DNA of 60,828 nt, taken from contig JBFMDV010000012.1 in the NCBI GenBank assembly GCA_040753875.1, positions 1-60,828 of the forward strand, written 5' to 3'. This document shows, piece after piece, positions 26,487 to 60,828 of the stretch. Made by a program: the position numbers and the translations under genes. Positions within the stretch are counted from its first letter, which is position 1; every line of letters starts with the position of its first letter. The notes beneath the pieces were generated by a model that did no database searches, had not been told where the DNA came from, and saw nothing but the letters and a program-made list of their open reading frames with translations. The DNA comes from Candidatus Zixiibacteriota bacterium (GTDB lineage: Bacteria; Zixibacteria; MSB-5A5; GN15; FEB-12).

Positions 26487-28334
26487 TCAGAGCTTGAAGC
26501 AGGGCTTTACTGGCAGTGGGCCACCGAAGGCAAACCAGTCTATAAAATACTGGAGGTCGCTGTTATCAACAGTACCATCGCAGTCACAGTCCGCGAGCGC
26601 TGCTGAAGGGAATATCTGCCCACCGAAAAAAAGGTAATCAACGATCACTGAAAGATCGCTAATGTCGAGCAGACCATCGTTACTGGCATCACCGTGCGAC
26701 AGTGACAGTACCGCCCCGAAGGCATCGACCCTGCCATAGCCATATTGGGTAGTGAAGCGGGAGTTAGTCCCCCAATCAAGCGTCGTATCCGCCGACTGTT
26801 TTAATATGTAGTAGACAGAGTTCGAAGAAAGGCCCGGATCCTTGGCCAGCACCAGGGCTGCCGCTCCTGCTACAAGAGGACCGGTGGCCGAAGTACCACC
26901 AAACTTGCAATCGTAGTCGACGTCATTCGGGCTGCTGCAGTTCCAGGTGACCGAGTAGCCACAAACTGACGTGACATTCGGGTTGAATCCTGCCGTACCC
27001 ATCTGATCTAACGTCCAGACGTCCCCCTGCAGACAGAAGTTACCGCTCGGCGCGACCACGTCCAGGTCACCACCATAGCAACTGTAGCTCCAACGGACGT
27101 CATTCAGTTGCAGCGCGCCAACGGCGAAACAGAACGGTTTGTTTGAAGGATATAGCACGTAACTGGTACCGGCGTTACCAGCCGCAAATATCACAGGGCA
27201 CCCCTTACCGCCTCTCCCAAACAGCGAAGCCCTCTCCAAGGCATCGTTGAGCACTGGGAATCCGTCTCCGGTAAATCCGTATCCCCAGCTATTCGAAAGC
27301 ACATCCGCACCGCTCTGGTAGGCATAGGATATTGCGTCTGCTACCCGGGTGACGTCTGATGTTCCAATGCCATTGTCATCGAATATCTTGACAGGCAGGA
27401 TCTCGACTGCGGGGGACATCGAGATGACCCCGCTGCCCGTGTTCACGCCCGAGAGGCTGTCCGTGGTGTGAGAGGCGCCAATGATACCTGCGCAGCCCAT
27501 ACCATGTGCCTCCAGATTGCCCGGAGCCGGATTGTCATCGTATGGAGTGCCTGCAATACCAGAGAAATCTCGGCCAGGAAGAACACGAGATTGCGGCAAA
27601 TCCTCGTGCGTGGTAACGCCGTCATCGACCACTGCAACTACGATAGTATCGATGGCACCGTGTATGTCCCAGACAGAAGCTGAATTGAAAGCTCCGATGA
27701 CCCGTTTCAGGTGAAACTGGCTCCCGTTGTAACGGTCATACAGTTTGTAGGTGAATCGCACCGGGCGAATCCCAAAAATCGGGTGCGAAAAACGCACTCC
27801 TGCCGCGTCGTGGAGATCGTTGGCCACAGTCAGCAGGCGTTTGCTGCCGGGGTCGGCGTTTCCCAGCACGTAGCAGTCCGGCAAGTACTCTAACTTTCGA
27901 GCAATAGCGGCACCATAATTCGCAGCAGTAGCAGCGACCGCTGATGAATCCATCCAGTCCTCAAAACCGGCCACCAGTTCACTTCCAACTGGAGCAGGCA
28001 CAGTGTCTGACAGGTAATAATACGGCTCGGCTGCCTCAATACCGATGGAATTGTTGAGCGTATCCAGAAAGGCATAGAGGTCACCTCCTGCTCCAATTAC
28101 CACGGCAAAAAAGCCGTTGATCATGTTGCTGTCCGGCGTCACGTAGCGAAGCCGGGAGTGCATGTCGAAAACCTGCTGCAGCGGAATCGTTGTGTCGAAC
28201 TTGATGGCAATCACGAAGCTGTCTACGCGAAGCGCTACCGGCCCGACGCTTCCGTAGTATGACTCGGCTTTGGCAAACACGAAGGTGGCCATAATGACCG
28301 AGCATGCCAAGCTTATCCATTTGAGAAATCGCAT
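26487..28334 (-). CDS. Secreted S8 (subtilisin-like) protease with dockerin-like tail
   Basis: A 615-residue secreted protein. It has a signal peptide (LKWISLACSVIMATFVFAKA), a pro-region of about 190 residues, the S8 catalytic domain and a dockerin-like C-terminus. The triad is visible as D237 (VVDDGV), H277 (EAHGMGC) and S482 (GGTSATGP). These motifs depart from the usual DTG/HGTH/GTSMA pattern, so it is a divergent but apparently complete enzyme. The tail has DASNDGLLDISDL...DYLFFGG, then CDGTVDNSDLQYFIDWFAFGG-like sequence, ending PCFKL. GAGGAGGG precedes the ATG. It lies 21 nt after the beta-propeller lipoprotein gene, so they are co-transcribed. The tail probably anchors or sorts the protein. 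Confidence 0.88.
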   Translation of the reverse strand: MRFLKWISLACSVIMATFVFAKAESYYGSVGPVALRVDSFVIAIKFDTTIPLQQVFDMHSRLRYVTPDSNMINGFFAVVIGAGGDLYAFLDTLNNSIGIEAAEPYYYLSDTVPAPVGSELVAGFEDWMDSSAVAATAANYGAAIARKLEYLPDCYVLGNADPGSKRLLTVANDLHDAAGVRFSHPIFGIRPVRFTYKLYDRYNGSQFHLKRVIGAFNSASVWDIHGAIDTIVVAVVDDGVTTHEDLPQSRVLPGRDFSGIAGTPYDDNPAPGNLEAHGMGCAGIIGASHTTDSLSGVNTGSGVISMSPAVEILPVKIFDDNGIGTSDVTRVADAISYAYQSGADVLSNSWGYGFTGDGFPVLNDALERASLFGRGGKGCPVIFAAGNAGTSYVLYPSNKPFCFAVGALQLNDVRWSYSCYGGDLDVVAPSGNFCLQGDVWTLDQMGTAGFNPNVTSVCGYSVTWNCSSPNDVDYDCKFGGTSATGPLVAGAAALVLAKDPGLSSNSVYYILKQSADTTLDWGTNSRFTTQYGYGRVDAFGAVLSLSHGDASNDGLLDISDLSVIVDYLFFGGQIFPSAALADCDCDGTVDNSDLQYFIDWFAFGGPLPVKPCFKL

Positions 28335-52819: not shown

Positions 52820-53737
52820 TTATTTGAGAAGCATCATTTTCTTGGTCTGTACGAAGTTGTCGGCTTCGATCTTATAGAAGTAGATCCCCGATGCTACCTT
52901 GGCGCCGCTATCGGATGTCCCGTCCCAGTCTGCCTGATACTTGCCCGCGGTCATATCCTTGTCGACAAGCACCTTCACCAACTGGCCGAGTACGTTATAG
53001 ACGGAGAGATTCACTTTCGAATTCCGAGGAATATCGAAGTTGATGAGCGTGACCGGGTTGAAGGGATTGGGGTAGTTCTGGCCGAGGGTGAACTCTGTCG
53101 GCAACTGCCCATCAATTTCCTTGACATCCGTCAGCTGTGCAGTATCCACAATCAGAAAACAATACGGGCCATCCCAGGCCGGAAAGGCGTTCACGCCTCC
53201 GGAGGCAGCCCATTTCCATGTGCCGCCCGGGCGGAACCAAGCCGAATCCACGCAAATATGCAGACCATGCTCAGCGTTGTCGAACGAGCCGATTCTTAGG
53301 CCATAGGGCACGCCGTCAAATCCCGCCGGAAGACCGCTGCTCGATATCTTGGCACCGATGATTCCAATAGTATCGGTATCCTTCGGGGTATCGACAGCTG
53401 CCAGCGTGTCAAAGACATTCATCTGAAATTGAATGTCCCAATTTGAGCGTGGGACGGCTCCCGTCAACGTGTCACCAGCCACCGGGCCGGACCACGTGGC
53501 ACCATCCGGCGAATAGATCTCAAACCCGTTGGAAATCGCTTCGTTCAGTCCCTCGCCATTGACATAACGTAATTTGAAAATGAGATTTGGCTCGTAGCTG
53601 ACGGTTCCCACCGTGTCAAGAGTTGCATCGCCATACTTACCCTGGATATCGTCAACCGAAATTGACGACTGCGCAAACGCAGGTGCCGCCGCCAGCACCA
53701 GCAGCACCGCACCAGCTATACCCAATAATCTCCTCAT
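52820..53737 (-). CDS. Secreted protein with T9SS-type/FlgD-like C-terminal sorting domain
   Basis: A 305-residue protein with a clear signal peptide (LLGIAGAVLLVLAAAPAFA). Its middle region (about 25-215) is unrecognised. Its last about 85 residues are the sorting fold: NYPNPFNPVTLINFDI, VNLSVYNVLGQLVKVL, GTSDSGAKVASGIYFYKIEA and TKKMMLLK. That domain targets the protein to the type IX or a similar outer-membrane secretion and anchoring route. AGGAG lies 5-6 nt before the ATG at 53737. Unlike its downstream neighbours it lacks a dockerin-like tail, so two sorting signals are in use here. Confidence 0.85.
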   Translation of the reverse strand: MRRLLGIAGAVLLVLAAAPAFAQSSISVDDIQGKYGDATLDTVGTVSYEPNLIFKLRYVNGEGLNEAISNGFEIYSPDGATWSGPVAGDTLTGAVPRSNWDIQFQMNVFDTLAAVDTPKDTDTIGIIGAKISSSGLPAGFDGVPYGLRIGSFDNAEHGLHICVDSAWFRPGGTWKWAASGGVNAFPAWDGPYCFLIVDTAQLTDVKEIDGQLPTEFTLGQNYPNPFNPVTLINFDIPRNSKVNLSVYNVLGQLVKVLVDKDMTAGKYQADWDGTSDSGAKVASGIYFYKIEADNFVQTKKMMLLK

Positions 53738-54082
53738 GCTCGCTCCTATGTTATTCGTTCGTATTCGTCGTAAGGTGCGTCTGCCTCCAGGCAATCCGCC
53801 GCAGGCATGTGACGCTGTGCCAAGGCCGCATCCATGCTTTTACCATTAAACGTCATAAATCACAAAACAGTTCAACACGTTATCAATACGTTTGCGTGTC
53901 ACCTCCTGACATGGCAGGTCGTTGCAGTCCTTGCAGTTGCTTCTCGGTCATAACTCACCTGTTGTCCAACATAGGGCGGGCCCGAGGGGGAGTCAATAAA
54001 AAAAGTGGCGGTCTTTGAGGAGACAAAGGGCGGGGCAGGCGCCGTGTCCTGCCCCGCAGAAAGCTAAAAAACTACGGCAAAA
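53738..54082. other. Non-coding gap between secreted-protein genes, with a short possible leader
   Basis: No long gene is present. On the - strand a 22-codon frame (53883-53951) follows AGGTGAGTT; its status is uncertain. The hairpin CGGGGCAGG...CCTGCCCCG at 54031-54056 lies after the subtilase stop and probably ends that transcript, although its T-run is weak. The remaining sequence shows no promoter I can defend. Confidence 0.4.
54031..54056 (-). terminator. Hairpin downstream of the second subtilase
   Basis: CGGGGCAGG and CCTGCCCCG form a perfect 9-bp stem with an 8-nt loop, 27 nt after the - strand stop. The following sequence on the - strand is CCCTTTGTC, so termination is probable but not certain. 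Confidence 0.55.
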
Positions 54083-56458
54083 TCACGCCGGGGGCGGCGG
54101 ACCGCCGAAGAACAGGTAATCGACCAGATACGAAAGGTCGCTGATATCGATACCACCAAGCCCATCAACGTTTCCGGCGTACGGGTCAGGCGCTGGACCG
54201 CCGAAAAACAGGAAATCGATCATCGCCTGGAGGTCCGAAATATCCACGGCGCCATCGTTGGTCAGATCACCCCGCAGAGTCTGCCGGACTTTGATTTTCG
54301 GGATCTTCCAGACTGGCCAGTAGCTCCCCCAAATCGAAGCCATGTACGGTGTCCGAGTTCCGATGGTGATGGTGTCAAATGTGACCACCGTGCCCTTGGG
54401 GGCGTTGGACGGCACATTGATAAAGAGCTTCAACACCACTCCCGTGTCGGCGGGAAGATAGTTGGAATTGGTGCCGGAATACGACTTCAGGAAGATGGCG
54501 TATTGTTTCAGGGATGGCACAAACGACGAATACTGGGCCTGCGCGAAATACGAAGCACGAGTTCCGACAACCGAGAAAGAGTCGAGCGTGATGTTGGCCG
54601 TATTCTGCATGCTGAAGGCATACTGCAGTTCCTTGATTGGCGACGTATTGTGGAGGTAAATGGGGATTGTCACCTTGGACGGCCGTTCTACAATCATTGA
54701 GTCGGTGCCAGCCGTGTCGGCCCGCGCCCAGATGTAGCTCAGCAATTGCTCTTCACCATCGCCGACCGCATCGGTGATTCTCAGCCCAACATCGTAGACG
54801 CCATTCGGTCCGGCCGTCGTATAGGTATGCAACGGGTTTTGCGCCATCGAGGTGCCCCCGTCGCCGAATGTCCAATCCCACGAGCTCGGCGTGTTGGGCG
54901 AAAGGTCGGAGAAATTCACCGTCAGCGGCACATTTCCGGACAATACGTCGCCGCTGAATTTGGCGTTGCCCACGCTCGACAGGGCGGTATTCGCATTCAC
55001 GCGCCCCCAGCCAAGCTGGCCGGCATAGGTGGGATTGATGGCGTCGATCGGATCGGCAGTCATCATGATCAATGAATCGACCTGGTTCCTTGTCAACGAT
55101 GGGTTCGCCGAGCGAATAAGCGCGTTAAGACCGGTTACAACCGGCGCGGACATGGAAGTACCGTCCAGAATTGCCGTGGTGGGTGTGTAGAAATTCGAGT
55201 ACGTGGAGAGGATACTCACGCCCGGCGCACAGACATCGATCCAACTCCCGTAGTTCGAGAAGTCAGCCAGAAAATCACCTGAATTGGTAGCTGCCACCGA
55301 CATGACACCTGTGCGAACGTCCTCCCAGCCGGCCACGCTCGATGTATCGTTCCCAGCCGAGTGAATGAACGAACAGCCGCTGGTGATGGCGTTGTCAATC
55401 GCAGCCGCTTCGGTCGAATTAAACGACCCGCCACCAAAACTGGCGTTGATCGCTTTCGCGCCATTGGCAACGGCATAGTTTATGGCGTTGGCGACGTCAT
55501 TGCTGTTCAGCGTGCCGCGACCGTCGGCGCGTGTCCCACCGGCTCGGACGCACATGATACGCACGCCCCGAAATGAGCGATGTCCACCGAACCAGCCTCC
55601 GGCCATACCGGTGACATTAAGTGTATTGTTAGTCATCGCGGCAGCAATACCGGCAACATGCGTGCCGTGCCCATTGTGGTCATTGGGATCCCAGTCCGGC
55701 GTGCCGCCATCCTCACCCGGATAGGTGCCGCCGGAAATACTGGTGACGAAATCCCAACCGATCAGATCATCAATGAAACCGTTGCCGTCATCATCGATAT
55801 TGTTCCGGTCGTCCAGACTATCGGCGACCACGCCATCGTGGTCAAGATCTTCGCCCGGGTTCACCCAGATGTTCCCGGTGAGATCGGTATGCTTGAAGTT
55901 CACCCCGGTGTCTATAATGGCGATCTTGATGGTGTCGGCGCCAGTCTCAATGTCCCACGCTGTGTACACGTTGGGGTCAGGTCCGGGTGGCTCCATGTGC
56001 CACTGGCTCGGCCACTGGGGGTCGTTGGGCGATGCATCGACCGTCATAGTCCAGACCGGTTCGGCGACCCGCACGTGGGGGTTCTGCATGAGATCGGTGA
56101 TGACCGCGCGAACATCGCGACTTTCCGGGAAAGAAAGCTCGTAGAAACGGGTCAGGTCTTTCAGCCCGGAGTTGATCTCCGGCTTGCGTGCATTGGTGAA
56201 CACCGGCCGGGCATTGTCTACCTGGTTGTCATCGAGGATCTTGTCGAGCGAAGCGACCCCAAACCTCACCTTCCCGAAGCTGAGGGCCATCCTAGCAACA
56301 TCCACACCGTCCTCCATCTGAACGGTGACTTTCCCCTTGACCATTTCCGTTTTGAACGGCGCCTGCCCCGGGTAGACCCGGGCCGACGCGTCTGACCCCA
56401 TTAGGGCCAGTCCGAGTACGGCAGGGGCGAGGGCGCGCAGAGCCAACCATCGTGTCAT
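54083..56458 (-). CDS. Secreted S8 protease with PKD and dockerin-like domains
   Basis: A 791-residue secreted subtilase. A signal peptide (WLALRALAPAVLGLALMGSD, cleaved near ASA) starts at the ATG at 56458, which has GGAG 9 nt upstream; ATG 56491 is also open. The catalytic triad is D183 (IAIIDTGVN), H264 (GHGTHVAG) and S435 (GTSMSAPVV), all canonical. A PKD domain follows (near LTVNFSDLSPNTPSSWDWTF), then a beta domain. The dockerin-like tail reads DLTNDGAVDISDLQAMIDFL then GGIDISDLSYLVDYLFFGG. It likely degrades external protein while cell-bound or assembled by the tail. Confidence 0.92.
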   Translation of the reverse strand: MTRWLALRALAPAVLGLALMGSDASARVYPGQAPFKTEMVKGKVTVQMEDGVDVARMALSFGKVRFGVASLDKILDDNQVDNARPVFTNARKPEINSGLKDLTRFYELSFPESRDVRAVITDLMQNPHVRVAEPVWTMTVDASPNDPQWPSQWHMEPPGPDPNVYTAWDIETGADTIKIAIIDTGVNFKHTDLTGNIWVNPGEDLDHDGVVADSLDDRNNIDDDGNGFIDDLIGWDFVTSISGGTYPGEDGGTPDWDPNDHNGHGTHVAGIAAAMTNNTLNVTGMAGGWFGGHRSFRGVRIMCVRAGGTRADGRGTLNSNDVANAINYAVANGAKAINASFGGGSFNSTEAAAIDNAITSGCSFIHSAGNDTSSVAGWEDVRTGVMSVAATNSGDFLADFSNYGSWIDVCAPGVSILSTYSNFYTPTTAILDGTSMSAPVVTGLNALIRSANPSLTRNQVDSLIMMTADPIDAINPTYAGQLGWGRVNANTALSSVGNAKFSGDVLSGNVPLTVNFSDLSPNTPSSWDWTFGDGGTSMAQNPLHTYTTAGPNGVYDVGLRITDAVGDGEEQLLSYIWARADTAGTDSMIVERPSKVTIPIYLHNTSPIKELQYAFSMQNTANITLDSFSVVGTRASYFAQAQYSSFVPSLKQYAIFLKSYSGTNSNYLPADTGVVLKLFINVPSNAPKGTVVTFDTITIGTRTPYMASIWGSYWPVWKIPKIKVRQTLRGDLTNDGAVDISDLQAMIDFLFFGGPAPDPYAGNVDGLGGIDISDLSYLVDYLFFGGPPPPA

Positions 56459-56684
56459 AGTGGCTTTCTCCATATATCTGAGAGCATCCATTTCTTCGTT
56501 CTCTTGACTATAACGACACAAAGGGGCCGATTTTTAACGGCCGGAACGCAGGCACCACAAGGGGTTGATTGTCCGGCAGGAAGTGAGGATCTGCCGCAGA
56601 CGACATCCTGCCCGCCGGTGGCAGACTTCCATCGACCTGCGAGAGTACGGCTCTAATATACGGCAACTGACCGCCCGTTCCAAG

Positions 56685-56721
56685 CAAAAAAAGAACGGCC
56701 ACCCCGGTTTCCGGGGTGGCC
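56685..56721 (-). terminator. Strong intrinsic terminator of the dockerin-tailed protein gene
   Basis: GGCCACCCCGG-TTT-CCGGGGTGGCC is a perfect 11-bp stem (56697-56721) followed on the - strand by GTTCTTTTTTTG. It lies 33 nt past the stop codon of the 56755-60060 gene. Confidence 0.9.
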
Positions 56722-56754
56722 GCGTCAGTCAATTCGACAGCGTGCAGAACTGGC

Positions 56755-59700
56755 TTAGCAGTTCGGGAGCGACGCGCCGAAGAACAGGAAGTCGATCAAC
56801 AACTGCAGGTCCGAGATGTCCACAGACAACGATTTGTCGACATCGTTCTCCTCAGCGCAATCCGAGATGGCGCCGCCAAAGAACAGATAGTCCACCATCG
56901 CCGACAGGTCGGAAATGTCGACCAGATCGCCAGGATCACCGTCAACGTTACCCGTCGTGCCGTTGCAGCAGCTCTCGATCAACACTGGACAGGCCCGTAC
57001 GTTCCAGCGATACCATTCTCTCGCTTTCTGGACCGACTGTATAAGATCCGTCGTGGTGCCGTTTCTTACAGTGATGAGCACCGAGTACACCACCACCGTG
57101 TCGCCGGCAGCCAGCGAGAAGTTGTTCTTGAACGTCATGGCCAGGTGCTGGTCATCCTTCGTCGGCTCAGCCGAGTAGCCCGGATTCTGCATGTTGGCCC
57201 AGAGTTCCGACGCCACAAAGCCGTTGTTGCCGAACACGAAGTCACTGTTCAGCGCCGTATAAGCACCGTACAGATCTCTCTTATTCGAGCACGGCTCGCT
57301 GGCAAACTGCGCATCGGTATACATGCCGAGTAGGGCGATACCGGCGAACCGGCGATCGTTATCCTGGCACTCATGCCCCGGCTTATCCTGATTGTACTCA
57401 CCACCCTGCTGATACATCAGCCGCAGTGAATCAATAAAGCCGGCGGTGTTGTCCGCGCCGGAGTCGGACGGCACATCCCAGTCAAACGCTTCACCCATCG
57501 TGATGTTGCTGACGGTGGCGTTCTTGTACGGGAACAGCGTCCATTTCTGGATCATGAAGTTACAGCTATCGCCATCCAGCGGCGCCCAGACTGTCTCTTC
57601 CAACGCCAGCGAAGAGTCGACCGTCACCATCTGGTCGGTCTGGTACTTCTGGTACTTGGATGTGATGGTCTTGCCGCGGCTGAAGATCGGGGCAACCTTG
57701 TCGGCCACCGGCTTGAAACCGGTCGTGTCGATGTAGTTGTCGCCGAAAATGGCCCAGCTGGCGCGATACGTGGACGGAGTCGGCTTGGTGATGATGATCG
57801 GCGAGCCGTCATACATGTACACCTTGGAATTGCCGAGCACCGAGTCGAGCTGGTCGCAGTCGCCGAAGTCGAAGTAATCCAGGTTGACCTTCTCCTTGCC
57901 TTCGGCGCCCATATTGCCACCATTGGTGAACACTAGACGCGTACAGGCCGTGGAGACGGTGTCACGATAGAGCGGGACCACCGTATCGGCCACCAGGGCG
58001 TCGATCGGGACAACGATTGAATCCAACGGATCCGGTGAATTCGACTTCAAAAAGACATAGCCGGTCAGGTGCACGTTGGTGCCGGGCGTATTGATGGCGC
58101 CCCCCACGTTCAACGTGATGTCCATGGTCGCGGTATTGCCCACGCCGGCCGGAATGTTGATACCACCCGTGGTCGAGATACCCAGCCAGGTGCCTGGACC
58201 AAGCGTCTGCACCTTGCCGATACCACCAGCCGGTATGTTGCAGGTCACGTTACCGGAATTCTCCATGGTAACTGTGATCGTCTTCGCCTGGCCATGTTTG
58301 GCATAGTTCGGGAAAACGATCTGAGCCGGCGAGACGTTCAGAATCGGGTTCGGGACGGCAGGGACACACTTGAAGCGAACCCACTTCATGGTATTCGGCG
58401 TCAGAACGCCCTGGTCGATGGTCGGAATGCCCGAGCCGGCGATCTTGTCGTTCAGAAACAGGATGTGTGTGTAGTAGTTGGTCGTGAACGACGGATCCAG
58501 GTCTACGGTCGCTTCGACCGGCCAGGTCAGCCCGCCGAATGCCGCTTCATCCATACCGTACGGAGCGATCGACGGATAGTTGTCGTCATCGCACACGCCG
58601 TTGAATCCGGCCGAGTCGCAACCAGGCGTACGGCTGTTAGTGATGTCACGGGCGCGATCCCATAACGTGCCGGTGACTGAGTCAGAAACGGACACATAGA
58701 TATCGCCGTTGGCCGCCCAGAACGCATCGGCACCGGCCAGGTTGGCGCAGTCGTTCAGCACGCCAGCCGGACGGTCGTTGTACTGCTCGAACGTCACATA
58801 GAACCGGTTGCTGCACTGGCCGATCTGGACACGGCCGACGTTCATGACGTTAATGCCACCGGCGCAAGTGCCCGGGGCCCACTCGGCGTTGTGCACGGTG
58901 CTGATGGTGCCGGTACCACCGCTCGTCTGCGCCCACGCCAGCACACGGCACTCACGGCCGACCGTGGCGCCAGTCGCATAAGCGTCCGCCGGGAACACCC
59001 AGGCGTTCCACACCAGGCGGACTTTGTCGTTCTGATCGATAAGGCCGGCGCATTCGAGCCATGGACGATGACCAGCCGTGTTCGGCGGGTTGTTCGTCAC
59101 GTTGTACCGGGGGCTCCAGGTCAGACCGGCGTCCGTCGACTCCATCATGTAGATGTCGTTGTCGTCGGAGTTATTCTTGATCTTTCCTTCCGGTGACTTG
59201 TTGACCCAGGCGAGTGCCACCTTCTTGGAGGTCCGGGACGTCATCACGGTCTGCGAAATGAAGTCTCCGGTATCAACCGCCATCCCGGTCCAGGTGCCGG
59301 CATCCTTTTTCCCCTGCTTGCGTGCCAGTTGATACGCGTTGGCGCCGTCACCGCAGCTAAAGGTAAACGTGACAGTATCGGTCCCGTTCACCAGATAGGC
59401 CACCTGGGGCCATATGATCTGGTCGCCAGCCGGCAGGCCGCCGATGTGCGAGACAGCGTCCGGGACAGCCGAACCAGCACCCCAGAAGCAGCTCGCTGCG
59501 AAACCGTCGTAATAGGTATGGGTACGAAACGGATCGGCATCGGTGGCACGACGGTGTCCGGACACAATACCGGCGGCATCCGACGGGTCGACCGATATAG
59601 CTATGAATCCGCCACGCTCGCCAGGACCCTGAATCAAACAGCCGGTGCCGGCGGTCTGCGGCCAGGTTCCCGATGATGCATCAAACACGTTGTAGCCATA

Positions 59701-60060
59701 GACACGACCGGTGTTATAGTCGGTAGTTGGCAGGAACGTGTATGCAAAGTGAATATACGGATCTTTTTCCCAGGTGATCGCGCGGGGAAGACTCCCGTTG
59801 GTCATCAGGTCCATATAGTTGTTCACCCGCACGTTGGAGCCTGGCGAAGCCGACGGCTGCGCTCCGCCCAGGGAGATGGCCGGAGCGTTCTTGTCCATAC
59901 TGGAACTGGTCGCGGTCGCAGGCTCCTGGACGATGAACGCGCGCGGCGCCAGCTTGTACCGGTTGAGCAATTCCGGACGGCTCACCGCTTCGGCCGCCGC
60001 GGCAATCAGTGTCACCAGCAGCACGGCTACCAGCAACAATGACCAAAGTTTTCTTGTCAT
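56755..60060 (-). CDS. Large secreted protein with Asp-box propeller and dockerin-like tail
   Basis: A 1101-residue secreted protein. The signal peptide is LWSLLLVAVLLVTLIAAAAEA. Residues about 60-560 look like a beta-propeller, with an Asp-box (STDAGLTW near 310) as in sialidase-type folds. About 570-690 is an Ig-like domain (LNVSPAQIVFPNYAKHGQAK). About 700-1010 is unassigned. The final 70 residues are the dockerin-like tail: LVDISDLSAMVDYLFFGGAI, then SVDISDLQLLIDFLFFGASL and C-terminal PNC. AAGGAG lies 6-7 nt before the ATG. No enzymatic residue set can be assigned; binding or structural role likely. Confidence 0.85.
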   Translation of the reverse strand: MTRKLWSLLLVAVLLVTLIAAAAEAVSRPELLNRYKLAPRAFIVQEPATATSSSMDKNAPAISLGGAQPSASPGSNVRVNNYMDLMTNGSLPRAITWEKDPYIHFAYTFLPTTDYNTGRVYGYNVFDASSGTWPQTAGTGCLIQGPGERGGFIAISVDPSDAAGIVSGHRRATDADPFRTHTYYDGFAASCFWGAGSAVPDAVSHIGGLPAGDQIIWPQVAYLVNGTDTVTFTFSCGDGANAYQLARKQGKKDAGTWTGMAVDTGDFISQTVMTSRTSKKVALAWVNKSPEGKIKNNSDDNDIYMMESTDAGLTWSPRYNVTNNPPNTAGHRPWLECAGLIDQNDKVRLVWNAWVFPADAYATGATVGRECRVLAWAQTSGGTGTISTVHNAEWAPGTCAGGINVMNVGRVQIGQCSNRFYVTFEQYNDRPAGVLNDCANLAGADAFWAANGDIYVSVSDSVTGTLWDRARDITNSRTPGCDSAGFNGVCDDDNYPSIAPYGMDEAAFGGLTWPVEATVDLDPSFTTNYYTHILFLNDKIAGSGIPTIDQGVLTPNTMKWVRFKCVPAVPNPILNVSPAQIVFPNYAKHGQAKTITVTMENSGNVTCNIPAGGIGKVQTLGPGTWLGISTTGGINIPAGVGNTATMDITLNVGGAINTPGTNVHLTGYVFLKSNSPDPLDSIVVPIDALVADTVVPLYRDTVSTACTRLVFTNGGNMGAEGKEKVNLDYFDFGDCDQLDSVLGNSKVYMYDGSPIIITKPTPSTYRASWAIFGDNYIDTTGFKPVADKVAPIFSRGKTITSKYQKYQTDQMVTVDSSLALEETVWAPLDGDSCNFMIQKWTLFPYKNATVSNITMGEAFDWDVPSDSGADNTAGFIDSLRLMYQQGGEYNQDKPGHECQDNDRRFAGIALLGMYTDAQFASEPCSNKRDLYGAYTALNSDFVFGNNGFVASELWANMQNPGYSAEPTKDDQHLAMTFKNNFSLAAGDTVVVYSVLITVRNGTTTDLIQSVQKAREWYRWNVRACPVLIESCCNGTTGNVDGDPGDLVDISDLSAMVDYLFFGGAISDCAEENDVDKSLSVDISDLQLLIDFLFFGASLPNC

Positions 60061-60782
60061 GCGTTGCTCCTTTCGAGCACTTAGAATAGTTCCCAGCTTA
60101 CTTTCTGAAAGACCACTTCACGATCAGATGATCGGAAATGTGAGCAATGGCGCAGTCGCATTTCAGACACACACGACCGCGTATCGGCTACTCTTCGCTG
60201 TGAATTCACCTCCTTTCGGCACGTCCTAATGACTTTGCCCTGCACATATGGGAGCTGGTTTCCCTTCGCAGTGAAGTAATGTGGCTGCTTCTGTAGTAAT
60301 CGCTCAATAAAGCTCAGTATGGTCCGGAAAAGACATAATGTAGATGCGCCCCCACGTCATCCCGGCTTCCGCGTGGTCCGCGCGGAAGTACCAATGTCTC
60401 AGCCCCGGTGGGTGAGCGAAGGGTATAGGCGCTGTTCCCAACCGGACCGTTAATAATATATACCTACCCTCTCTCTTTTACAAGAAAAAAAGCACCCTCC
60501 TCCCCTCCCCAAAAGGCCAGCTGGCATACCCCTATTCCGCGCCTACGGGTACGCTTCCCAACCATTCCGCACCTCCAACGAGGGCCTTGCTGCCCCTGGG
60601 CCAGGACTGTAGTCCCAAGCCCGCTGGCGGTTGGGGGCTCGGCTCAATTGGCCCGGAGGGGCCGGGCGCTTTGATTGGCCGACCTGAGCCGCCCGCCAAA
60701 CAAAATGGCCGCCCCCGGAGTATCCGGGGACGGCCGAGCTCTCGGCTGACGCCTCACGGCGTCACCGCGTTCTGCCCCTGTC
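60061..60782. other. Long non-coding region upstream of the large secreted-protein gene
   Basis: 722 bp without a supported gene. Structures: the hairpin CTTCCGCG/CGCGGAAG at 60366-60388, of a shape common in dispersed repeats; a GC-rich, pyrimidine-rich stretch at 60460-60680; and a terminator for the upstream gene at 60707-60735. On the - strand a strong Shine-Dalgarno-like sequence, AAAGGAGGTGAATTCA (60201-60216), lies about 140 nt before the ATG with no proper start codon at normal spacing. Confidence 0.5.
60701..60735 (-). terminator. Intrinsic terminator of the partial right-edge gene
   Basis: GGCCGCCCCCGGAG...CCGGGGACGGCC forms a long GC stem with one mismatch. It is followed on the - strand by ATTTTGTTT, 48 nt after the stop at 60783. 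Similar in style to the 56697 terminator. Confidence 0.75.
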
Positions 60783-60828
60783 CTAACAGTTCGGCAAAGA
60801 AGCCCCAAAGAACAGGAAGTCGATCAAC
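60783..60828 (-). CDS. Partial gene: C-terminus of a second dockerin-tailed secreted protein
   Basis: Only the last 14 codons and stop are inside the window. The translated end is LIDFLFFGASLPNC, identical in protein sequence to the end of the 56755-60060 protein. The DNA differs at seven codons including the stop (TAG against TAA), all without changing an amino acid. A dedicated terminator follows. It is probably a tandem paralogue of the large secreted protein; the rest lies beyond the edge. Confidence 0.8.
   Translation of the reverse strand, partial: LIDFLFFGASLPNC

Follow-up and report, generated by a model that had tools for sequence, protein, structure and literature searches.

Genes at the right end of the contig

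The stretch of DNA analysed here (the window, 60,828 nucleotides) is the entire contig C12 (C12:1-60828) of a Candidatus Zixiibacteriota bacterium, whose genome, called G000 below, comprises 3.29 Mb in 39 contigs. At its right end lie two genes on the minus strand. The first, gene A (56755-60060, -), encodes a protein of 1101 amino acids (aa) that ends in a dockerin-like module; the second, the edge gene, is represented by its last 14 codons and the stop codon TAG (60783-60828, -) and runs off the contig. Both genes end in the same residues, and this shared end, together with the module to which it belongs, probably a docking tag used on dozens of exported proteins, is the subject of the present analysis.

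The 14 residues LIDFLFFGASLPNC, followed by a stop codon, form the C-terminus both of gene A (residues at 56758-56799, -) and of the edge frame (60783-60827, -). As the preliminary description had reported, the DNA behind them differs by synonymous changes only: six sense codons and the stop are different, namely F (TTC/TTT), G (GGC/GGG), A (GCG/GCT), S (TCG/TCT), L (CTC/TTG), C (TGC/TGT) and the stop itself (TAA/TAG), and 100% of these differences are synonymous. The first six of the 14 codons, encoding LIDFLF, have the same DNA in both genes, and the exact identity extends over 21 nucleotides (nt) up to the contig end (56780-56800, -, in gene A; 60808-60828, -, in the edge gene). This 21-mer has exactly two copies in the genome, both on C12, and it is the likely cause of the assembly break at the right end of the contig. 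Because the shared 21 nt run into the contig end, the upstream part of the edge gene cannot be compared with gene A. The extension of the contig that had been proposed as a check did not succeed, since no other contig of the bin carries the exact 21-mer and the only other N-terminal half of a gene-A protein in the bin is that on contig C28 (E ≤ 0.01); the edge gene thus stayed incomplete.

The codons of the two tails agree at 8 of the 14 positions, where codon usage predicts 5.8 (P(≥8) = 0.18). That is to say, the divergence of the two tails is old and the protein has been kept constant. In a search of the own genome the tail match was 100% over 14 aa with E 0.008, by which chance was ruled out as its source with respect to unrelated sequence. 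The match is also not confined to the two neighbours: the full-length paralogue of gene A on C28 (44%) has the same last 14 residues, and many other open reading frames (ORFs) carry tails of this kind. Among the 703 pairs of the 38 tails of the type with a CC pair, to which the edge copy does not belong, the last 14 positions share on average 6.7 residues; 13 are shared in 8 pairs and 14 in one pair, that of gene A and C28. The tail match of gene A therein lies at the upper end of the distribution for the family.

Apart from its tail, gene A has few recognisable features. Its N-terminus looks signal-like by eye; no Pfam family (E ≤ 1) and no NCBIfam family (E ≤ 0.01) was found in the protein, and its body (the first 1000 residues) has no relatives in the PDB at E 0.1. 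Gene A has matches in 60 of the 61 genomes searched (own genome included), and among the matches listed, no fewer than 9 of the 60 relatives have gene-A relatives that adjoin each other on one strand. The preliminary description had taken the shared tail as the mark of a tandem paralogue pair. Such a pair is plausible in view of these tandem arrangements, but it is not established: the contig stops within the shared 21-mer, and since the same kind of tail occurs on many different bodies, a shared tail is no proof of a paralogous relation between the edge gene and gene A. Neighbours need not share a tail because they are a tandem pair.

The dockerin-like module

When the 65-residue end of gene A was used as a query, 80 places in the genome were matched at E ≤ 10. 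The module reached at least 25 bits in 74 of the ORFs fetched (a set that lacks two or more of the strong PF00404 places, on C21), and in 66 of these it lies no more than 8 residues from the stop. It consists of two repeats, each a calcium loop and a helix, in the arrangement of type I dockerins: in gene A, repeat 1 is GNVDGDPGDLVDISDLSAMVDYLFFGG (56872-56952, -) and repeat 2 is DVDKSLSVDISDLQLLIDFLFFGA (56773-56844, -). The 14 shared residues comprise the latter half of the repeat-2 helix and the end of the protein. In profile A1, which was built from the 38 CC-type tails of G000, the residues D21, D24, D54 and D57 are invariant, and D13 and D15 are present in at least 90% of the members; in its sequence pattern the module has two tandem repeats, each about 22 residues long and with Asp/Asn ligands. 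With the Pfam dockerin family PF00404, 46 rows were obtained in the genome at E ≤ 10, and 15 of them exceed the cut-off (10 alone and 5 with their neighbours in frame); at E ≤ 10, 9 of the 14 control genomes also match, two of them over the cut-off. The best reading is that the module is a divergent type I dockerin-like module; the module of gene A itself falls below the PF00404 cut-off, and for this reason it is named dockerin-like.

Several side observations concern the module. Of the 80 module places, five are no farther than 500 nt from the end of a contig (C12, C5, C3, C20 and C27, counted by hand) against 0.95 expected, and module repeats may be a source of assembly fragmentation. At the right end of C5 (L014:424-2930), three module frames occur within 2.5 kb, and two of them are ORFs of 113 and 130 aa that are mostly tail. 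L060 (273 aa) and L059 (339 aa) have overlapping module matches in their N-terminal half and possibly contain more than two repeats. Thrombospondin type 3 repeats are found in the dockerin-tagged L018, L015 and L012 (under the Pfam cut-off in L015), and in L018 and L015 they sit shortly N-side of the CC pair.

Genome-specific spelling of the tag

In order to compare tails across genomes, 20 tails each were taken from G000, G026, G007, G034 and G027, which represent five genera of one family. The G000 sample was a random draw of 20 from the 38 CC-type tails, while those of the other four were taken down the match lists of the G000-built profile, which favours G000-like tails (78 module matches in G026, 94 in G007 and 94 in G034, with 20 tails used from each). 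Tail identity amounts to 0.628 inside a genome and to 0.399 across genomes, and the difference of 0.229 compares with 0.019 as the largest of 2000 permuted differences; for all 100 of the 100 tails, the nearest neighbour comes from the own genome. The two repeats resemble each other by 0.757 within a protein, by 0.715 within a genome and by 0.431 across genomes, so both repeats share the spelling of their genome. The strongest genome signal lies at positions 22, 24 and 11, in both repeats; positions 11 and 22 belong to the classical recognition sites of dockerins. It has been reported that cohesin–dockerin binding is generally considered species-specific (PMC12484212). Each of the five genomes has a spelling of its own for the tag, probably one that fits the receptors on its own surface.

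The same pattern appears when the bodies are held to one family. Of the gene-A family, 39 members with usable tails were compared, 34 from relatives and 5 from G000; 3 of 37 ORFs from relatives had been excluded for lack of a module match or because the module was cut, one of them with masked letters. The CC pair is present in 39 of 39, and the tails are identical by 0.713 within genomes (44 pairs) and by 0.387 between them (697 pairs). The bodies of these proteins are also closer within (0.534) than between genomes (0.311), from which it follows that lineage-specific expansion does occur. An alternative is therefore that the likeness of tails within a genome reflects lineage-specific bursts of module copying, in which case no receptor-driven selection on the spelling would be necessary. 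Against this, at a body identity of 25-50% the tails of one genome are still 0.715 alike (12 pairs) and those of different genomes 0.390 (616 pairs), even if mean body identity remains unequal in these sets (0.41 and 0.32), and the genome spelling is common to both repeats. Codon use points in the same direction. At identical residues, the codon match of own-genome tails is 0.424 against 0.401 expected (703 pairs, with gene A/C28 among the highest), and the observed and expected values, over 190 pairs each, are 0.436 and 0.400 in G026, 0.509 and 0.479 in G007, 0.390 and 0.387 in G034, and 0.417 and 0.406 in G027. The tails are thus near codon saturation in all five genomes tested while alike in protein, which argues that the proteins have been under purifying selection since any burst. 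Copying bursts as the full explanation are considered unlikely, and a genome-specific spelling that is held by selection is preferred.

Selection and copying in gene A and its paralogue

Gene A and C28 allow the tail to be compared with the rest of the protein, as had been proposed for the tail and the body. In the last 65 codons the proportion of nonsynonymous differences (pN) is 0.020 and that of synonymous differences (pS) is 0.482, whereas elsewhere in the protein pN is 0.395 and pS is 0.699. Selection on the protein tail, with its terminal Cys, is supported by these values, by the near saturation of codons in five genomes and by the presence of the end Cys in 64 of 66 modules; in this respect the claim of the preliminary description holds.

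Selection is not the whole story for A/C28, which is the closest pair. At identical residues the codons of this pair match at 42 of 64 in the tail, against 97 of 206 in the body, taken over the part shared with C5 (p = 0.010), and gene A is closest to C5 by body (similarity 0.497, against 0.445 with C28) and closest to C28 by tail (0.985, against 0.723 with C5); the higher codon match of the A/C28 tails indicates that the tail was exchanged or copied later than the bodies diverged. With the tandem gene-A relatives in related genomes, and an edge gene whose identity beyond the contig end is not visible, these data could be taken to mean that identical tails arose by a tandem duplication of recent date or by gene conversion at the locus, and not by long-term selection. 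This is improbable as a general explanation, given that the codon agreement between gene A and the edge gene shows no excess over codon usage, that the own-genome codon match exceeds its expectation so little over the 703 pairs, and that the third identical copy, C28, is on a different contig. Long-term selection on a tag of one genome-wide kind is thus retained as the explanation of the shared tail.

Cysteine sets of the module

In gene A, a CC pair (56965-56970, -) stands directly N-side of the module, a linker Cys (56857-56859, -) at the end of repeat 1, and the terminal Cys (56758-56760, -) is the last residue of the protein. In profile A1 the CC columns are C4 (at least 90%) and C5 (invariant), and the linker and terminal Cys are invariant. 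By their co-occurrence, the CC pair is proposed as the cystine partner of the linker and end Cys. Counted in the order N-side, linker, loop 2 and end, the 66 modules show the sets (2,1,0,1) in 39, (0,0,1,1) in 14, (1,0,0,1) in 5, (0,0,0,0) in 2 and others in 6; these classes rest on automatic alignment, and two N-side Cys are not necessarily adjacent. When the 66 own modules and the 80 tails of the other four genomes are taken together, the linker Cys is present in 119 of 120 modules with at least two N-side Cys and absent in 23 of 26 with fewer (p = 1.6e-22, relatedness ignored). In the four other genomes, 79 of 80 tails have both N-side Cys and the linker Cys, the remaining one being a G007 tail in which the linker Cys is missing and the N-side Cys is single. 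In the 64 own modules that have it, the end Cys is never without another Cys, and this suggests that the Cys of the module form cystines. Use of the terminal Cys for lipidation or by a sortase was rejected, as the end Cys tracks the other Cys of the module.

The Cys sets also differ with the cargo. For 40 of the 66 dockerin ORFs, families were assigned by Pfam, at E 1e-4 in 38 and at E 1 in 2: 16 of the 40 are peptidases, 8 are without any family, and no glycoside hydrolase family was found among those scanned. L049 combines a beta-helix with a rhamnosidase-type Ig domain. The four-Cys form is carried by 18 of the 24 non-peptidases and is absent in 15 of the 16 peptidases and in 6 of the 24 other dockerin ORFs (p = 1.8e-5).

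Cohesins and the type IX secretion system

The cohesin family PF00963 gave 14 matches at E ≤ 10 in 9 ORFs of the genome, of which 6 matches in 4 ORFs exceed the cut-off; of the 14 control genomes, 2 match and 1 does so over the cut-off. Contig C22 carries a cohesin ORF of 814 aa with two matches over the cut-off and another of 911 aa with three matches, two of them over it, while the cohesin ORFs on C37 and C4 have two matches each, one over the cut-off (the C4 ORF scores 46.7 bits as a whole protein). Several cohesins per ORF, as in scaffoldins, are thus found in the two ORFs on C22 and in those on C37 and C4. Three of these four strong ORFs, the two on C22 and the one on C37, end in a sorting domain of the type IX secretion system (T9SS), and the fourth, on C4, ends in a dockerin. 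Of the five weaker cohesin ORFs, three (on C20, C1 and C16) have a T9SS domain at their end, while the search detected none on the other two. The secretion system itself is indicated by SprA_N, which is present in the genome and in 0 of 14 controls, and by 43 places with a T9SS sorting domain at E 0.01, 41 of them over the cut-off.

Across 132 genomes of the phylum (own included), where at most about 43 module candidates per genome were scored, the module was found in 122 (E 1e-4) and cohesin in 118 (E 0.001). Both occur in 114, the module only in 8, cohesin only in 4 and neither in 6 (p = 7.7e-5, phylogeny ignored).

It could be held that the tail is itself a sorting or anchoring signal (T9SS-like, or of the lipid or sortase type through the last Cys) and no ligand of cohesins, as the module is C-terminal in 66 of 74 ORFs, homologous N-domains are joined to a dockerin-like tail in some proteins and to a T9SS sorting domain in others, and the tail is present in eight genomes that gave no cohesin match; this is hardly probable, however, considering that the duplicated loop and helix pattern with invariant Asp fits dockerins, though weakly, that no T9SS sorting domain (Por_Secre_tail) was found in gene A in the family scans, that the end Cys tracks the other Cys, and that in L054 (C33) an internal module precedes a T9SS domain.

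Proposed docking at the cell surface

Taking the above together, the shared tail is probably one half of a C-terminal calcium-binding docking module that is captured by T9SS-anchored cohesins and is carried by many peptidases. As a divergent type I dockerin, the module would bind calcium, and its Cys would close it by disulfides, as a covalent version of the known terminal clasp of dockerins. The two near-identical helices may allow cohesin to be bound in two orientations. The partners would be the cohesins on proteins with a T9SS sorting domain, which would place them at the cell surface, so that exported proteins, many of them peptidases, may be collected there by means of an address that is specific to the genome. 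The neighbours would share a tail because dozens of exported proteins of the genome bear docking tags of a single kind; under this proposal, the ends of the edge gene and gene A are alike because both carry one address, which a shared receptor keeps constant.

Several points weigh against this. A1 does match solved chains from cohesin–dockerin work, but the similarity is weak, with E 0.0095 for 4fl4, 0.26 for 2ccl and 0.68 for 1ohz. Chain 4fl4_A is a dockerin; 1ohz and 2ccl are cohesin–dockerin complexes (PMC5864761). The gene A module scores 13.6-14.3 bits, below the PF00404 cut-off of 22.9, and a PF00404 match at E 0.05 is found in only 12 of the 38 A1 members. An AlphaFold model from a four-row alignment is poor (mean pLDDT 48.9), with helices only at 29-41 and 62-74, and is uninformative on disulfide geometry. 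Two of the 66 modules have no Cys at the places counted, one of them on a subtilase of the window, and 6 of 66 have Cys sets that do not pair neatly. Eight of the 14 cohesin matches are weak, lying below the cut-off. In the phylum, the module occurs without a cohesin match (E 0.001) in 8 of 132 genomes and cohesin without the module in 4, and the p-value of the co-occurrence takes no account of phylogeny. Among the 8 are three single-contig genomes of one genus (G074, G075 and G076), which have 26-43 module matches and no cohesin at E 0.001.

A wider proposal is put forward tentatively, as a possibility somewhat short of even chances: in Zixibacteria, a cystine-stapled dockerin may serve as a genome-specific address code, with one spelling on dozens of unrelated exported proteins kept by selection on the protein that a common set of T9SS-anchored cohesins exerts; as lineages separate, the whole set would change its spelling jointly and with no DNA copying of recent date, and the Cys architecture would sort the cargo, peptidases being mostly without the four-Cys set. 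If true, cohesin–dockerin assembly would be extended to Zixibacteria and tied to type IX secretion. Nature would then also supply a series of candidate docking pairs, one per genome and probably stabilised by disulfides. It would also make testable the general question of how a ligand encoded in dozens of genes changes in step with its receptors.

Other features of the window

Two further proteins of the window carry the module. One is a subtilase (S8) with a PKD domain (54083-56521, -), whose C-terminal dockerin-like module is without Cys; the other is a second subtilase (26487-28334, -), whose C-terminal dockerin-like module has the loop-2 and end Cys. Between them, at 52820-53794 (-), is encoded a protein that bears a T9SS type A sorting domain (52832-53074). 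Its N-domain recurs in the T9SS-tagged L023 and L065 and in the dockerin-tagged L053, L032, L045 and L046, and since the same N-domain bears either tag, it seems that one C-terminal tag can stand in for the other on a given body.

By consensus match only, terminator-like hairpins lie 3′ of the stop of gene A (56695-56723, -) and 3′ of that of the edge gene (60707-60735, -); the region has 5 such hairpins, and shuffles have a mean of 3.3 (standard deviation 1.9). The two hairpins, of 13 pairs each, resemble each other and would fit separate transcription units. No RNA family was found in the window at the gathering score.

Comparison with known systems

In the literature covered, which included few subscription papers, no paper was found that names both Zixibacteria and dockerin, nor one on Zixibacteria with type IX secretion; PMC11557425 states that metagenome-based genomes were excluded.

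The module resembles the type I dockerins (PF00404) of clostridial cellulosomes in its two near-symmetric repeats of calcium loop and helix, in its C-terminal place on exported proteins, in the presence of cohesins in the same genome and in its genome-specific positions, 11 and 22 being among the most specific here. It differs from them in that gene A falls below the Pfam cut-off and in the conserved N-side, linker and end Cys; moreover, the genome is one with a T9SS, and no glycoside hydrolase family is found among the dockerin ORFs scanned. According to PMC5748583, the dockerins of one group of clostridia share putative recognition residues, unlike those of other cellulosome producers. One general set is used there in most mesophilic clostridia, whereas here all five genera differ, with tails near codon saturation.

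A further likeness is offered by Candidatus Stygibacter (Cloacimonadota), for which PMC8542988 describes dockerins on peptidases among other proteins, a scaffoldin-like cohesin protein with inferred attachment to the cell through a conserved C-terminal domain, and an inferred cellulosome-like complex that includes homologues of GH18 and GH57. Dockerins on peptidases and a cohesin scaffoldin attached by its C-terminal domain would be common to both systems; the GH18 and GH57 homologues belong to that system, and in the text covered no mention of Cys sets or of genome-wide spellings was found for it. Finally, in the ScaA dockerin of R. flavefaciens, as reported in PMC5864761, an N-terminal Trp contacts a C-terminal Pro and thereby stabilises the module. 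In both cases the N- and C-terminal ends of the module would meet for stability; the ScaA contact is non-covalent, while a cystine is proposed for the module of gene A.

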